From: an uncultured Bacteroidales bacterium
GTDB taxonomy: Bacteria; Bacteroidota; Bacteroidia; Bacteroidales; P3
Assembly: GCA_944320465.1 (NCBI GenBank)
Contig: CALUHO010000012.1
Span: 1-64,000 of the forward strand
DNA length: 64,000 bases
Reading direction: 5' to 3'
Position numbers and translations under genes: made by a program
Shown: positions 28,585-56,795 of the stretch, piece by piece
Position numbering within the stretch: position 1 is the first letter of the stretch
How the letters are laid out: each line of letters begins with the position of its first letter
Notes under the pieces: model-generated
Told to the model about the DNA's origin: nothing
Databases searched by the model: none
The model's input: the letters and a program-made list of their open reading frames with translations, nothing else

Positions 28585-30699
28585 TTAAAAGTAGAAACCT
28601 CGGTTATCCTCAATTACAGCTGCTTTTTCCAGAGCTGACAGGATCATATTGGAAGCGTTCTGCATGAACTGCTGTTCCATCGAGTTGGTGATTTGGACCA
28701 ATTCGGCGGGAGTGGCTTCCGGTGCGGCAATATTGTCAATGATGAAGCGGTAGGCACCGGAATTGCCTTGAACGGCTTGCGAAAGCCTGCCTTGAGCCGT
28801 ACCGCACATGGCTCCTACGACCTTCGGTTCGTAGCTGCGGTTCAGCATGGGATAGCTACCGATGCGCAGGGCAAGAGCCGTATCCACTTTTGCCTTGTTT
28901 TCTTGGGCAGCGGCTTCAAGGGAAGATGCTGCATTGATTTTCTGCGCTAAAATATGGAATTTCTTTTCTTGTTTTACGCGATTGGTGATTTGTGGCATTT
29001 GCATGGCCCGTTCCAGAGGGGTGTATTCGTCTTCGTTGATATTGCGCAAGCCGGCAATCACGTAACGGTTTTCCATTTCAAATACTTGCGATGCCACGCT
29101 GCCTTCTTCGGTGTCTTCGTTGAACGCCCAGCGGATTACTTCACGGGCGGAGGCAACGCCTGGAAGCGAGGAGGCCAGTTCTGTTGCCGAATTCTGGCGA
29201 ACCCTCATCCCTATCTTGCGGGCGGCCGAGTCCATTCGGGCAACATCTCCATGGCAGTCGGCCATTAATTGGTTGGCACGTGTATAAACGCTCTTGGCCG
29301 TAGCCGTACTTGGTTCGATAGGAATGGTGACCACTGCGGCAAGGACTTTCTTGACCGGTTTCGTTTTTTGAGCAATATAGAGGATATGGAATCCGTTGGG
29401 CGCTTCAGCCATCGTGGCTTTTCCGGCAGGGGTGGCTAAAGCGGCTTTATTCAGGTTGCTCATCAAGGTTCCGTCAAGCATCCAGCCCAATTCGCCGCGA
29501 CTTTGCTGGGCGGTGGGGTCTTCCGAGAACCGGACGGCCAAGTCTCCGAATTGATCCGGATTGGCATTGATGACGTTCAGCAAGGAGTCTGCCAGTTGCC
29601 GGCTTTGGCTCTTGTTACGACCGCTCTGGCTGCCAGCTTCGGTATAGGACAAGAAGATGTGGTGGATATACATTGAATCAGGACGCATCTGGACATCCAT
29701 CAGTTTAGCCATTTGATAGGTCTGGCCCATCCGGCGAGGAGCAAAGAATGTGCCTGGTTCTACCGAGAAGAGGGAATCCCATCCTTGGAAGATTTCTGAT
29801 TTGTTGCGGTAGAGACTGTCAAAACGGTCGCCTGAGGTAACTGCGTTTACAAAATCAGGAATGTTGTCTTCTTGCTGGAATTCGGCATAAAGTTCGTTCA
29901 CTTCTTTGGTGATGTCAGCCATGTCTTGCGGAGTTGGGGTGACATCGAAAACCACGTATGCGATATCGCGGCTTTTGTTCTGCTTGAACATGTATTTGTT
30001 CTCGTTGTAGAACTTCTGGTAATCGGCTTTGGTCAGTTCTACTTCGGCATCGCTCACAGACGAGTAAGGCAGCGAAACGTAACGGGCATTGACCGAGGTG
30101 GCTTGTTGCGTGGATTGCAAGGCGGCCAGTCCTTTAGGCACATAGTATGATTTGGAAGCCAGATAGAAGTATTTTTCTTTCAGGCGTTCGGTTTTGACAA
30201 TGCGTTCCAATTCGGCCAATGTGCTTTGGTCTTGAGCCGAAAGCTGGTTGAAATTGTTGATGATGTTCATTACCTGCTGGCGGTCGTACTGGCCGGTTTG
30301 CGGGTTGGTGAAGTACTGGTAGAGAATGGGGCTGATGAATTTGCCGTAATACATGTCGTTGAGTTCCTCCGGGCTTACGAGCAAGCCTACTTCCGTGCAG
30401 GCATCATTCATCAGTAAATCGGAAAGCATCCGTTGCCAAGCGATGTTTCTGATTTGTTCCCGATCGGCATCGGTCAGCGAAACATTCCCCCCTTGTGACT
30501 GGATGTATTGGTCGGTCAACTGATCTACTTGCATGCTGAAGAGGTCATACGAAATGGATTCTCCATCGATAACCGCTACCGGGGGTGCGCTTTGTCCCCG
30601 TCCTCCGAATGCATCTTGAATCACGAATCCGATGATAGCGATACCAATCAAGGCTACCGCAAGACCTGCATGTTTTCTGATAGTGCCGATAATAGCCAT
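28585..30699 (-). CDS. PpiD/SurA-like peptidylprolyl isomerase
   Basis: 704 aa. One N-terminal transmembrane helix (HAGLAVALIGIAIIGFVIQ) anchors a periplasmic protein. A SurA-N/PpiD-type chaperone domain with VIDGESISYDLF follows, then a parvulin domain at about 335-430 (YIHHIFLSYTE, FSEDPTAQQSRGELGWM). It would help fold outer-membrane proteins. The length matches the large Bacteroidetes form. It has a clear promoter about 120 bp upstream and its own terminator, so it is probably monocistronic. Confidence 0.92.
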   Translation of the reverse strand: MAIIGTIRKHAGLAVALIGIAIIGFVIQDAFGGRGQSAPPVAVIDGESISYDLFSMQVDQLTDQYIQSQGGNVSLTDADREQIRNIAWQRMLSDLLMNDACTEVGLLVSPEELNDMYYGKFISPILYQYFTNPQTGQYDRQQVMNIINNFNQLSAQDQSTLAELERIVKTERLKEKYFYLASKSYYVPKGLAALQSTQQATSVNARYVSLPYSSVSDAEVELTKADYQKFYNENKYMFKQNKSRDIAYVVFDVTPTPQDMADITKEVNELYAEFQQEDNIPDFVNAVTSGDRFDSLYRNKSEIFQGWDSLFSVEPGTFFAPRRMGQTYQMAKLMDVQMRPDSMYIHHIFLSYTEAGSQSGRNKSQSRQLADSLLNVINANPDQFGDLAVRFSEDPTAQQSRGELGWMLDGTLMSNLNKAALATPAGKATMAEAPNGFHILYIAQKTKPVKKVLAAVVTIPIEPSTATAKSVYTRANQLMADCHGDVARMDSAARKIGMRVRQNSATELASSLPGVASAREVIRWAFNEDTEEGSVASQVFEMENRYVIAGLRNINEDEYTPLERAMQMPQITNRVKQEKKFHILAQKINAASSLEAAAQENKAKVDTALALRIGSYPMLNRSYEPKVVGAMCGTAQGRLSQAVQGNSGAYRFIIDNIAAPEATPAELVQITNSMEQQFMQNASNMILSALEKAAVIEDNRGFYF

Positions 30700-30850: not shown

Positions 30851-30994
30851 GGAGATGCGAGGCAGGTGTTTCGTCGTGTGCCAGAGGTGTGAGATGGTAT
30901 TGGAAAAATGCATATATTCGCGTTTCGCATGGCTATGGCTTTTGACAGGTGGCAATGATTTGTAGGGGAGTGCGTGCGCAGAGGATAGCTTTAA

Positions 30995-31187
30995 CCCAAA
31001 TCGGTCATTAGACTTTGGGGAGATTGCCCGCTTGTGTCATGCAGCATGCTTCTCGCCTAGCCGAAGGCGTAGCGGGCTACGTCGAGGCGTAGCGAGAAAC
31101 AGGATGCGGACAGAGGCGGGCAAGATGCCCGAAAGCCTCATTTTCCTAACAGAAAACAGCCCCGGCGTGTCTAATGACCGATTTGGG
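30995..31187 (+). mobile_element. MITE-like element, copy 2 (TSD TTTAA)
   Basis: 193 bp, forward orientation, flanked by TTTAA at 30990-30994 and 31188-31192. It is nearly identical to copies 1, 3 and 9. It ends 41 bp before the Cys-rich lipoprotein ATG, so it occupies that gene's leader or promoter region. The bases 30850-30990 hold no gene. Confidence 0.9.
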
Positions 31188-31232
31188 TTTAAGCATAGAA
31201 GAGATTAGAGACCAAATTAAAACCATAACACA

Positions 31233-31637
31233 ATGAGAAAACTGATTTTTGTATTGGCTTTGGCCGCTTTGAGTTTTGTGGCTTGCAAGTCTGGCAACAA
31301 CAATGCGCCGGCGGCAAACGGGAATGCAACCGAGCAGGTGGCTCCGGCTTCTAAGACGGGTGGCTGCGATGCTGTCTGCGATACCGCTTGCAAGAAAGTG
31401 GCTTGCGCATGCCCGCAGGGAGCTAAGTGCCAGGCTGGCTGCACGAAGGACAATTGCACTTGCTGCAAGAAGGAGTGCAAGCAGAACTGCGAAAAGGCTG
31501 CTGCCCAACAATGCCCGCAAGGCAAAACCTGCAAGAAAGAGGCTTGCTGCAAGGAGAATGCTTGCGATGCGTCCAAGTGCAAATGCACGGCCGACAAGAA
31601 CTGCGGCAAAAAGTGCTGCCCTGCTGTCAAGAAATAA
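31233..31637 (+). CDS. Cysteine-rich, metallothionein-like lipoprotein
   Basis: 134 aa. The lipoprotein signal MRKLIFVLALAALSFVAC puts the acylated Cys at position 18. After a short Ala/Asn/Gly linker the chain carries 22 more cysteines in about 90 residues, as CxC, CxxC, CxxxC and CC pairs separated by Lys (VACACPQGAKCQAGC, NCTCCKKECKQNC, CKKEACCKENAC), with almost no aromatic residues. The pattern is that of metallothioneins, which bind Zn, Cu or Cd through thiolates, but the protein is exported and lipid-anchored. I know no family name. It has its own terminator. The overlapping frames are shadows. Confidence 0.8.
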   Translation: MRKLIFVLALAALSFVACKSGNNNAPAANGNATEQVAPASKTGGCDAVCDTACKKVACACPQGAKCQAGCTKDNCTCCKKECKQNCEKAAAQQCPQGKTCKKEACCKENACDASKCKCTADKNCGKKCCPAVKK

Positions 31638-31660
31638 TCTTGCCGGGTCTTGATACAGGA

Positions 31661-31701
31661 AAAGCCGGTTCGTCCCTGCGGATGGACCGGCTTTCTTTTT
31701 T
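31661..31701 (+). terminator. Terminator of the Cys-rich lipoprotein
   Basis: AAAGCCGGT...ACCGGCTTT with an inner GTCC/GGA pair (31661-31694) is followed by CTTTTTTCC. It begins 24 nt after the stop. Confidence 0.88.
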
Positions 31702-31717
31702 CCGTATATCAGGTATG

Positions 31718-31838
31718 TAAAATTCTTAGAGGGCAGCTGCATGGCTTGCGAGGCCGCCCGCACCGGAGCGTACTTTCGTGCGTGAGGATGCGGGCATCGA
31801 AGCATAACGCCGCAGATGCCCTCTAAAAAAGAATTTTA
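31718..31838 (-). repeat. Stop-proximal hairpin element C (after cysN)
   Basis: TAAAATTCT plus TAGAGGGCA (31718-31735) pair with TGCCCTCTA (31817-31825) and AGAATTTTA (31830-31838), with a 4-nt bulge. Inner CTGC pairs with GCAG. The interior shares GTACGCTCC and CTCGCA with element B1. Before MITE copy 3 inserted, the right arm overlapped the cysN stop codon. Confidence 0.7.
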
Positions 31839-31839
31839 T

Positions 31840-32032
31840 CCCAAATCGGTCATTAGACTTTGGGGAGATTGCCCGCTTGTGTCATGCAGCATGCTTCTCG
31901 CCTAGCCGAAGGCGTAGCGGGCTACGTCGAGGCGTAGCGAGAAACAGGATGCGGACAGAGGCGGGCAAGATGCCCGAAAGCCTCATTTTCCTAACCGAAA
32001 ACAGCCCCGGCGTGTCTAATGACCGATTTGGG
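31840..32032 (+). mobile_element. MITE-like element, copy 3 (TSD TTTAT), in the cysN stop codon
   Basis: 193 bp, flanked by TTTAT at 31835-31839 and 32033-32037. The right duplicate contains the cysN stop codon (TAA, minus strand, 32034-32036), so the insertion regenerated the stop. It separates cysN from hairpin element C. Confidence 0.92.
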
Positions 32033-32033
32033 T

Positions 32034-33299
32034 TTATAGGATCATGCCGGCAGCCACCGTCTCGTTAGTCGCCTCATCCACCAGCACCAAGCTCCCCGTG
32101 ATCCGGTTATCCTCGTACTTGTCATAGACCATCGGCTTCATGCTCTTGATCTTGACCGATGCGATGGAGTTGAGCACCACTTCGGCACTGTCTTTCTTTT
32201 CAAAGGTATTGACATCGAGCAGGTAGTTGACTCCCTTGACGATGCAGCGGGTTTCCAGATGAGGGTGCAGCAGGCAGTATTTGCCGCCTGCCTGCAAAGG
32301 CTTCTGGTTCATCCAGCACATCATCATGTCCACTTCGTTGCCCACTTGGGCAGGCTGGTCCTTGGGCACGATCATGTCGCCCCGGCTGATATCGATTTCA
32401 TCTTCCAGTTCCATGCTGACCGAGAGCGGCGAGCGGGCTTCCTGCATGTCCTGCTTGCCGAAATGAATGTGTTTGATTTTGCTGCAGAGGCCGGAAGGCT
32501 GTACCATGATTTCCTGGCCTACATGGAAAGAACCCGATGCGATACGTCCGGCAAAGCCCCGGTAGTCGGGGAATTCGGCGCTGATAGGCCGGATGACGTA
32601 CTGCACGGGGTAACGAGCGGCGCAGTCGATTTGCTGGTGCGATACCGGCAGGGTTTCCAGCAGGTTCATCAGGGTCGGGCCTTGGTACCATGGCATATTC
32701 TCGGACGGGTTCACCACATTGTCACCCTTCAAGGCGCTGATGGGAATGAAATGCACGTCTTTCAGTTTCAGGAAGTCTTTCATCTTATTGAAATCCGTGC
32801 AAATCTTGTCGAAGACTTCCTGTCTGAAGTCCACCATATCCATCTTGTTGACACAGACTACGATATGGGGAATGCCCAGCAGACTGGCTATAATCGTGTG
32901 GCGGTGGGTCTGTTCCAAGACGCCGTTGCGGGAGTCGATTAGGATCAAGGCGGCATCGGCCGTGGAAGCGCCGGTGACCATGTTGCGGGTGTATTGGATA
33001 TGCCCCGGCGTGTCGGCGATGATGAACTTGCGTTTCGGGGTAGCGAAATAGCGGTAGGCTACATCGATTGTGATGCCTTGCTCGCGTTCGGCTTTCAGCC
33101 CGTCGGTCAGCAAAGCCAGGTTCACGAATTCGTTGCCTCGTTTCTGGCTGGCGGTCTTGATGGCTTCCAATTGGTCTTCAAAGATGGACTTGCTGTCGTT
33201 CAGAAGCCGTCCTATCAAGGTGCTCTTGCCGTCATCCACGCTGCCTGCGGTGGTGAAGCGCAAGAGTTCCATATCCAAATATCCGTTGTTGTTGCTCAT
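32034..33299 (-). CDS. cysN: Sulfate adenylyltransferase subunit 1 (GTPase)
   Basis: 421 aa. It is the regulatory GTPase of ATP sulfurylase; with CysD it makes adenosine 5'-phosphosulfate. It has an EF-Tu-like G domain: P-loop GSVDDGKST, switch region EREQGITID, DTPGH, NKMD. Domains 2 and 3 follow. There is no fused CysC kinase domain (relatives with it exceed 600 aa). The stop codon lies in a MITE target duplication. cysD is upstream with a 197-bp gap filled by a hairpin element. Confidence 0.96.
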   Translation of the reverse strand: MSNNNGYLDMELLRFTTAGSVDDGKSTLIGRLLNDSKSIFEDQLEAIKTASQKRGNEFVNLALLTDGLKAEREQGITIDVAYRYFATPKRKFIIADTPGHIQYTRNMVTGASTADAALILIDSRNGVLEQTHRHTIIASLLGIPHIVVCVNKMDMVDFRQEVFDKICTDFNKMKDFLKLKDVHFIPISALKGDNVVNPSENMPWYQGPTLMNLLETLPVSHQQIDCAARYPVQYVIRPISAEFPDYRGFAGRIASGSFHVGQEIMVQPSGLCSKIKHIHFGKQDMQEARSPLSVSMELEDEIDISRGDMIVPKDQPAQVGNEVDMMMCWMNQKPLQAGGKYCLLHPHLETRCIVKGVNYLLDVNTFEKKDSAEVVLNSIASVKIKSMKPMVYDKYEDNRITGSLVLVDEATNETVAAGMIL

Positions 33300-33496: not shown

Positions 33497-34396
33497 TTAG
33501 AAGTAGCCTTCGCGCTTACGATCTTCCATCGCCGACTCCGACCTCTTGTCGTCGGCCCGTCCCCCGCGTTCGGTGACCCGGGTGGCTGCAATCTCGTCGA
33601 TGATGTCCTGGAGGTTGTGGGCTTCGGACAAGACCATGCCCGTGCAGCTCACATCGCCGATAGTCCGGCAGCGGACGGTCAGCTCTTCCACTTTTTCGTC
33701 AGGCTTGAGCTTCATGAAAGGCGCGGCGGCCAGGTACATCCCGTCGCGTTTGAAAACCTTGCGGCGATGGGAGAAGTAGATGGACGGCATTTCGATGTTT
33801 TCCTGCAAGATATATTGCCATACATCCATTTCGGTCCAATTGCTGATAGGAAAGACGCGGAAGTGTTCGCCCATGTGCTTTTTGCCGTTGAAGATGTTCC
33901 AAAGTTCAGGACGCTGGTTCTTGGGATCCCATTGGCCGAATTCGTCCCGGTGGGAGAAGAAGCGTTCCTTGGCGCGGGCTTTTTCCTCGTCCCGGCGGGC
34001 TCCCCCCATCGCGGCATCGAACTTGTTCTTTTCCAGTGCATCGAGCAGGACGGCGGTTTGTAATAAGTTGCGGCTGGCGTTGTAGCCTTTCTCCTCGGTC
34101 ACCATGCCTTTGTCGATGGCTTCCTGCACCGAACCCACAATCAGGGTCGCGCCCAACTTCTTGACGAGGTTGTCGCGGTACTCGATGGTTTCGGGAAAGT
34201 TGTGCCCGGTGTCGATATGCAGCAGGGGGAACGGGATTTTTGCCGGATAGAAGGCCTTGTAGGCCAGATAGGTCAGGACGATGGAGTCTTTACCGCCTGA
34301 AAAAAGCAATACCGGGTTCTGGAATTGGGCGGCCACTTCGCGAATCACATAGACCGCTTCGGCTTCCAGTACCTGAAGATGTGTGGTCTTTTCCAT
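33497..34396 (-). CDS. cysD: Sulfate adenylyltransferase subunit 2
   Basis: 299 aa from the ATG at 34396; a GTG at 34408 is possible. It is the catalytic ATP-sulfurylase subunit (PAPS-reductase-like fold). The PP-loop is LLFSGGKDSIVLTYLA; also HIDTGHNFPETIEYRD, GGARRDEEKARAKERFFS and the C-terminal RCRTIGDVSCTG. Without cysH or cysC nearby, the use of the APS (assimilation or sulfation) is open. It has a promoter at 34489 and is probably co-transcribed with cysN through the hairpin element. Confidence 0.95.
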   Translation of the reverse strand: MEKTTHLQVLEAEAVYVIREVAAQFQNPVLLFSGGKDSIVLTYLAYKAFYPAKIPFPLLHIDTGHNFPETIEYRDNLVKKLGATLIVGSVQEAIDKGMVTEEKGYNASRNLLQTAVLLDALEKNKFDAAMGGARRDEEKARAKERFFSHRDEFGQWDPKNQRPELWNIFNGKKHMGEHFRVFPISNWTEMDVWQYILQENIEMPSIYFSHRRKVFKRDGMYLAAAPFMKLKPDEKVEELTVRCRTIGDVSCTGMVLSEAHNLQDIIDEIAATRVTERGGRADDKRSESAMEDRKREGYF

Positions 34397-34734: not shown

Positions 34735-35952
34735 TTACCGCTGGGTTCGGCCAAGGTTCGCCTTTTTTTTCATCCGCATTTTCCGGCACCAGAAATAGTA
34801 GCCCGTGAACGCGAGGATGCCGCCGAGCAAGGCGGCGATGCAGCTCAGGATGCGGGTGGCGAGGCCTCCCCAGCTGCCAGTATGGACCGAATAGATCCAG
34901 CCTCTGATTTTTCCGTTCTTGGGCAGGTCTTTGTAAAGTTGCGTCGATGTGATTTCCCCGTTTTCCGGATTGAACGAATAGCGGTCGCTGCTCCGGGTGT
35001 TCCCGTAGCGGGCGGTGGAGACCGAAGCCGAACCGTCTTGGAGGGTGATGGACTTGTAGGAACCGTAGCGGCTTTGCAGCTGCGCCAAGACGCTTGTCCA
35101 ATGGGTGTAATCTGTCGTCCGGGCAAGGGCTGTGCCGGCATCCTGGCTTCGGGCGGCTTGTCCTTGCTGCGGTCCTTGCATTTGCCCTTGCGCCTGCTTT
35201 CCCGAGCCAGAATCCTGGCTTCGCCCTCCGGATGGGCCTGCTGATTGTCCATGCGCCTTTCTTGCGGCCGCTTCCACGCCGAAAACCTTGCAAAAGGCTT
35301 GGTTGTACCAGCTAAAGGACCAAGTGAGCCCCGTCAGGGCCATGGCCAGCAGCAAGAGGAAAGCGTAGAAGCCGCCGGCCACATGCAGGTCGTGCCAGAA
35401 GCGGAAACGCCCCGAGCGGCACTTGACTTGCAATCGGTTCTTCAGCATTTTGCGGCTCCGGGGCCACCAGATGACAAGGCCGCTGACAAGGATAATCGCC
35501 ATCGCCAGCGTGGCGTAGCCCACAATGTTTTTTCCCCAGGCAAAGCTGCCGTCCCGTTTGGGAGTGTCCAGGAGCCAGCGGTGCAGCCGCATCACTTGCG
35601 TGAAGAAGCCTTGGCCGTCGTCCATTCCCACGACCGAGCCGGTGTAAGGGTCGATAAAGGCGGCCGCTTTCTTGCCGGGCAGCAGGATTTGATAGCTGCG
35701 TTCCGGGTCTTGGAACACCCGGATGCCCCGGATTGGCGTGTTCTCGGGCAGCTGCTGCCGCGCCGAGGCCATCAGCCGGTCTATCGGGAGAGTTTCAGCC
35801 TTGGCTTCCTTGACAAAGTAGCGGGAGGGGTGGCAGAGTTGCAGTATCTCCTGCTCAAAGACCAATAAGGCACCGGTGATGCAGATGATGGCGATGAGGA
35901 TGCCGAAAGGTATCGACAGCCATAGATGGAGTTTGGCGAAGGTCTTTCTCAT
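34735..35952 (-). CDS. PepSY-associated TM helix protein (XusC-like)
   Basis: 405 aa inner-membrane protein with four transmembrane segments (LHLWLSIPFGILIAIICITG; IVGYATLAMAIILVSGLVIW; GGFYAFLLLLAMALTGL; ILSCIAALLGGILAFTGYY) and PepSY-type periplasmic parts (TPIRGIRVFQDPERSYQIL). Histidines LHLW, RLHRWL, WHDLHVAGG and VHTG are placed as in haem-binding ferric reductase-like members. A Gln/Gly/Ser-rich linker lies at about 230-280. It is last in the order TonB receptor, DUF4374, PepSY, which equals the xusABC operon of Bacteroides; it may reduce iron from imported siderophores. Confidence 0.88.
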   Translation of the reverse strand: MRKTFAKLHLWLSIPFGILIAIICITGALLVFEQEILQLCHPSRYFVKEAKAETLPIDRLMASARQQLPENTPIRGIRVFQDPERSYQILLPGKKAAAFIDPYTGSVVGMDDGQGFFTQVMRLHRWLLDTPKRDGSFAWGKNIVGYATLAMAIILVSGLVIWWPRSRKMLKNRLQVKCRSGRFRFWHDLHVAGGFYAFLLLLAMALTGLTWSFSWYNQAFCKVFGVEAAARKAHGQSAGPSGGRSQDSGSGKQAQGQMQGPQQGQAARSQDAGTALARTTDYTHWTSVLAQLQSRYGSYKSITLQDGSASVSTARYGNTRSSDRYSFNPENGEITSTQLYKDLPKNGKIRGWIYSVHTGSWGGLATRILSCIAALLGGILAFTGYYFWCRKMRMKKKANLGRTQR

Positions 35953-36095: not shown

Positions 36096-37601
<1,506 letters not shown>

Positions 37602-56602: not shown

Positions 56603-56795
56603 CCCAAATCGGTCATTAGACTTTGGGGAGATTGCCCGCTTGTGTCATGCAGCATGCTTCTCGCCTAGCCGAAGGCGTAGCGGGCTACGTCGAGGCGTAG
56701 CGAGAAACAGGATGCGGACAGAGGCGGGCAAGATGCCCGAAAGCCTCATTTTCCTAACCGAAAACAGCCCCGGCGTGTCTAATGACCGATTTGGG
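56603..56795 (+). mobile_element. MITE-like element, copy 9 (TSD TTGAA)
   Basis: 193 bp, forward orientation, first subfamily, flanked by TTGAA at 56598-56602 and 56796-56800. It lies between the upstream region of the UvrA paralogue and the rpsA terminator. Confidence 0.92.

Follow-up and report, generated by a model that had tools for sequence, protein, structure and literature searches.

The gene at positions 31233–31637 (+ strand) of the 64,000-nucleotide stretch of DNA analysed here (the window) encodes a 134-aa predicted lipoprotein that carries 22 cysteines in an 85-residue tail. The most likely reading of this protein, to which we give a probability of roughly 40%, is a metallothionein-like buffer that would hold metal by its thiolates and face the periplasm, its metal binding being only predicted. 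The genome to which the window belongs measures 2.85 Mb in 61 contigs and comes from the genus of Candidatus Pullibacteroides (Bacteroidales).

The lipoprotein gene and its leader

We take the open reading frame, which starts with ATG, to be a real gene, because intact orthologues occur in related species and because most changes relative to the G001 gene fall at third codon positions (11, 14 and 37 changes at positions one, two and three, with 25 synonymous and 21 non-synonymous codons). We discount an antisense frame (31146–31805, 219 aa), which the greedy gene calling of the script behind the exported-protein census described below had picked at this locus: it is the forward frame that shows the third-position-biased change, and the antisense one merely arises from the recurring TGC codons of the gene.

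The product opens with a signal peptide, MRKLIFVLALAALSFVA (31233–31283, +), followed by the lipid-anchored Cys18 and a cysteine-free linker, KSGNNNAPAANGNATEQVAPASKTGG (31284–31364, +), and then by the cysteine-rich domain (31365–31619, +). The signal pattern, MRKLIFVLALAALSFVAC, with its positive N-terminus, hydrophobic core and lipobox cysteine, is conserved across the orthologues, and judged by this pattern the protein is a predicted signal peptidase II lipoprotein. The sequence-only reading had described an exported, membrane-tethered protein in which a lipoprotein signal is joined to a 22-cysteine chain, and both elements hold up: the 23 cysteines comprise the lipobox C18 and 22 others at residues 45–129. 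Cysteine makes up 26% of the domain, which has neither His nor aromatic residues, and 19% (22 of 115 residues) of the mature chain, which is rich in Cys, Lys and Ala and lacks Phe, Tyr, Trp and His throughout. The cysteine background in 33 other predicted exported proteins of the same genome is 0.84%, some 23-fold lower, in a census that covered a 384-kb genome sample with a simple home-made classifier and left out the cysteine-rich lipoprotein itself. The parity of cysteine counts in these exported proteins, a potential sign of disulfides, was 16 odd to 15 even, a sample too small to tell.

In Bacteroides, surface exposure of lipoproteins needs an acidic CS(D/E)2 signal (PMC6222051). Here Cys18 is followed by KSGNNN, which has no acidic motif of the CS(D/E)2 type and so does not fit the LES pattern. 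Because this export signal is absent, an outer-membrane location facing the periplasm seems more likely than the cell surface; of the two sites proposed earlier, periplasm or surface, the former is thus the one we would retain.

An intrinsic-terminator-like hairpin with a T-run (31660–31702, +) follows the gene, which is therefore probably transcribed alone. A candidate −7 box, TATATTCG (30913–30920, +), is tentatively assigned from a similar box upstream of the orthologues; no clear −33 box was seen upstream of the gene. Between this box and the ATG lies a 193-bp MITE (30995–31187, +), recognized from the alignment of orthologues and from its other genomic copies and flanked by a TTTAA target-site duplication (30990–30994 and 31188–31192, +). 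The orthologues lack an insert at this site, and some 40 near-full copies, 96–100% identical, are found in the genome, which bears out the earlier observation of a recent MITE upstream. The element has a terminal inverted repeat, CCCAAATCGGTCATTAGAC, at least 19 bp long; of the 30 copies inspected, 24 are accompanied by a 5-bp duplication rich in A+T (TTTAA, TTTAT, TTCAA). With the box upstream of the MITE, 45 bases between the MITE and the ATG, and a strong hairpin predicted in the leader with the insert (z = −7.25), the insertion would leave the candidate promoter box in place and put a structured element into the 5' leader.

A second copy in the same orientation lies downstream of the gene (31840–32032, +), so that two copies bracket it; with their duplications they span 30990–31192 and 31835–32037, and others lie at 2549, at 56603 and elsewhere. 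We considered whether the gene might itself be cargo of a mobile element and rejected the idea: searches of viral contigs and plasmids found no relative, and the gene holds a conserved chromosomal position in related genomes, so it was not carried there by the flanking MITEs.

A series of cysteine numbers at one locus

That conserved position was read with 6-kb flanks in four related MAGs, where the orthologues stand divergent from a PpiD/SurA-type isomerase and adjoin cysN and cysD. The corresponding genes in the window encode a SurA_N/PPIC peptidyl-prolyl isomerase (PpiD-like; 28585–30699, −), a convergent cysN-like GTPase subunit of sulfate adenylyltransferase (32034–33299, −) and a cysD-like protein of the PAPS_reduct family (33497–34396, −). 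No metal gene or regulator is found near the lipoprotein gene, and no redox gene is adjacent to it.

Beyond cysD, two of the MAGs encode a product of about 515 aa (MLYPIGIQNFESLRKGGFTYVDKTDLIYQLA...; L020 9369–10916 and L021 9309–10853, −), which looks like a putative member of an AAA-ATPase-like family. Also in the window, a PepSY_TM protein and a DUF4374 protein are encoded side by side (34735–35952 and 36096–37520, −), an arrangement reminiscent of XusC/XusB, the xenosiderophore pair of Bacteroides.

The number of mature cysteines, counted on the sequences without those of the signal and the lipid anchor, ranges widely among the orthologues: 3 in G002, 4 in G006, 5 in both G007 and G010, 12 in G005, 22 in G001, G011 and the window, and 33 in G009. 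A member of another genus (G021) has 6 at the same divergent position. In three genomes of 1.2–1.7 Mb (G003, G008 and G012) the gene is absent at the orthologous site. Since sister species carry 3–5 cysteines and these three reduced genomes have no gene there, we regard the gene as dispensable or variable within the genus. In a tree of the neighbouring isomerase, the species with 22 and 33 cysteines form a single clade with full support, and the low-cysteine species are its sister group.

Part of this variation is recent. The G009 orthologue contains an 87-bp unit in three tandem copies with 95% match (L022 6143–6399), a recent in-frame expansion in which each copy brings eight cysteines; tandem duplication has thus enlarged the tail recently in the G009 lineage. 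No DNA repeat is detectable in the window copy of the gene. Alignment of the window protein with that of G001 retains 22 of 23 cysteine columns, and against the more cysteine-rich G009 protein 22 of 26 cysteine columns are kept versus 53 of 108 others (Fisher P = 0.0009), a contrast to be read knowing that the alignment scoring itself favours cysteine matches. This better conservation of cysteine than of other residues lends the earlier emphasis on the cysteines additional support.

Spacing, fold and relatives

The tail had been described as metallothionein-like, with cysteines in metallothionein-type spacing. Its composition is indeed metallothionein-like, but the spacing is not diagnostic. 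Against 5000 shuffles of the cysteine domain, neither CXC (3 observed, 5.0 expected) nor CC (3 versus 5.0) is enriched, and CXXC, counted as cysteine pairs three apart, is depleted (1 versus 5.0, P = 0.015). The same depletion appears in G001 (P = 0.011) and G009 (P = 0.007), three related proteins whose tests are not independent. Taken in a functional sense, then, the metallothionein features of high cysteine content and no aromatics are present, and enrichment of CXC, CC or CXXC is not.

Profile searches, proposed earlier as a check on the mature part, did not assign the tail to any metallothionein family. Pfam gave no match at E ≤ 10 to the whole protein or its mature part, a sequence search of the PDB found no match to the protein, and an NCBIfam match was limited to the signal-peptide region, with none to the cysteine tail. 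The prokaryotic metallothionein profile (PF02069) had no matches in the 13 genomes of the genus, the control being positive in Synechococcus. So far as profiles can tell, the protein does not belong to a metallothionein family; what stands of the earlier description is the composition and an unfolded-looking tail. An AlphaFold model built on a five-member alignment has a pLDDT of 38 and no usable fold, which would fit, without proving, a chain that does not fold by itself.

Profiles built from the cysteine-rich lipoproteins recover small lipoproteins across the Bacteroidales, most of them with the lipid cysteine only. Cysteine tails nevertheless occur in several families: CDSCAHECDSCATPCDTC (G170), CCGDSACCCDSVACDSCC (G326), CCKNDSCKNDSCKGEGTCADC (G409) and CACDSCACDSCTGNC (G057). 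Our second profile (A3) already included the G170 and G326 proteins, and the other cysteine-tailed matches are the sole independent finds. The window protein resembles these matches mainly in its signal peptide, a similarity from which common descent of the tails does not follow; the difference in spacing, with CXXC in the other families and its avoidance in the window protein, suggests separate origins. The neighbours of these other cysteine-tailed lipoproteins, read from translations, show no metal link. Several loci (L072, L073, L074, L075, L076 and L084, at the centre of each) hold PG1828-like small lipoproteins from other Bacteroidales families, with short cysteine-rich tails, several of CXXC type. 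The PG1828 family model itself (NF050142, PG1828_fam_lipo) matches only the signal peptide and the start of the linker of the window protein (residues 1–36), at 25.5 bits, well under the cut-off of 50, and the cysteine domain lies outside the model; the orthologues score 17–30 bits, the cysteine-tailed G170 protein 49.1 and a cysteine-free relative 54.6.

Among known systems, the metallothioneins SmtA/BmtA (PF02069) and MymT are short and cytosolic. The window protein resembles them in being small and cysteine-rich, with few aromatics and no metal-free fold expected, but differs in its lipoprotein signal, about twice as many cysteines, no His, depleted CXXC and the lack of a PF02069 match. Chlamydial OmcA is a small cysteine-rich outer-membrane lipoprotein, a type to which the window protein would also conform. 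A precedent for metal storage beyond the cytoplasm is Csp1, an exported protein that holds Cu(I) there with many cysteines (PMC7558416). Csp1 is, however, a Tat-exported, rigid four-helix-bundle tetramer; for this lipoprotein modelling gave no predicted fold.

Redox state of the periplasm and function of the tail

Any thiolate chemistry outside the cytoplasm had been made conditional on the cysteines staying reduced. Each of the 13 genomes from the genus has a DsbD_TM match, and the genome of the window has a full-length DsbD with DsbD_N, membrane and C-terminal thioredoxin domains (L131 1295–3361, −). The oxidant search, limited to the profiles of DSBA (PF01323), VKOR (PF07884) and Thioredoxin_4 (PF13462), found none of these in any of the 13, the controls being positive in known genomes. 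DsbD without a recognizable DsbA or VKOR oxidant makes reduced tail thiols plausible and supports the condition in part. It falls short of proving a reducing periplasm, because TrxP of B. fragilis can act as both oxidase and reductase (PMC6158253) and the absence of DsbA is not proof of reducing conditions.

On the reading we prefer, the metal buffer, the protein would be anchored by its lipid in the outer membrane, with a natively unfolded tail that points towards the periplasm. Under anaerobic conditions there, the tail thiols would remain reduced and enclose soft metal ions (Cu(I), Zn, Cd) as clusters, with a capacity that may scale with cysteine number. The protein may have started as a short lipoprotein of low complexity to which cysteines were added, in part by tandem duplication. 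In its favour we count 22 cysteines in 85 residues without His or aromatics, the better conservation of cysteine, the range of 3–33 cysteines at one locus, the high-cysteine clade, the threefold 87-bp repeat, DsbD in 13 of 13 genomes lacking the oxidants, the pLDDT of 38 and the Csp1 precedent. Against it stand the want of a nearby metal gene or regulator and of a family match, CXC and CC at no more than chance with CXXC depleted, a possible TrxP oxidase, sisters with only 3–5 cysteines, and three genomes without the gene.

The tail could instead be a thiol redox buffer or sacrificial scavenger that absorbs periplasmic oxidants, electrophiles and reactive sulfur or nitrogen species and is re-reduced through the DsbD pathway, metals being incidental. 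Its capacity, too, would scale with cysteine number, and it would suit both the ubiquity of DsbD without a recognizable oxidant and a spacing that is not specifically that of metallothioneins; yet CXXC, the usual reversible redox motif, is depleted in the tail and an adjacent redox gene is absent, and we consider this explanation unlikely. Less probable again is a role like that of OmcA, in which intermolecular disulfides stiffen the outer membrane. The layout of a small outer-membrane-type lipoprotein with many cysteines is that of OmcA, but the genus, whose members are gut Bacteroidales and probably anaerobic, has no DSBA, VKOR or Thioredoxin_4, that is, no recognizable DsbA-type oxidants, and the protein has no Pfam match at E ≤ 10. 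Some oxidase activity may nonetheless come from TrxP in Bacteroidales (PMC6158253).

It might also be that the tail has no cysteine-specific function and that cysteine codons rose by drift, in a generic small-lipoprotein tail tolerant of repeat expansion. Similar small lipoproteins are of low complexity with variable tails, cysteine number varies widely, and the triplication in G009 is of the slippage type and recent. Cysteine columns are, however, conserved above others, cysteine is otherwise at 0.84% in exported proteins, and cysteine tails are found in several Bacteroidales families, which leaves drift, in our estimation, the most improbable of these readings.

More broadly, we put forward, as a tentative and rather doubtful proposal, that Bacteroidales have repeatedly evolved metallothionein-like proteins from scratch, exported and anchored in the membrane, by adding cysteines to a generic small lipoprotein where the periplasm has DsbD as a reducing arm and lacks a DsbA or VKOR oxidant, and that Ca. 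Pullibacteroides keeps the intermediates, from 3 to 33 cysteines, at one locus. If the tail holds metal, this would be a metallothionein-type buffer outside the cytoplasm, an unexpected place because thiols are usually oxidized there, and the genus would provide, at a single locus, a natural gradation in cysteine number along which the evolution of such a buffer could be followed. DsbD without DsbA or VKOR makes the presence of reduced thiols in the periplasm of an anaerobe a directly testable question.
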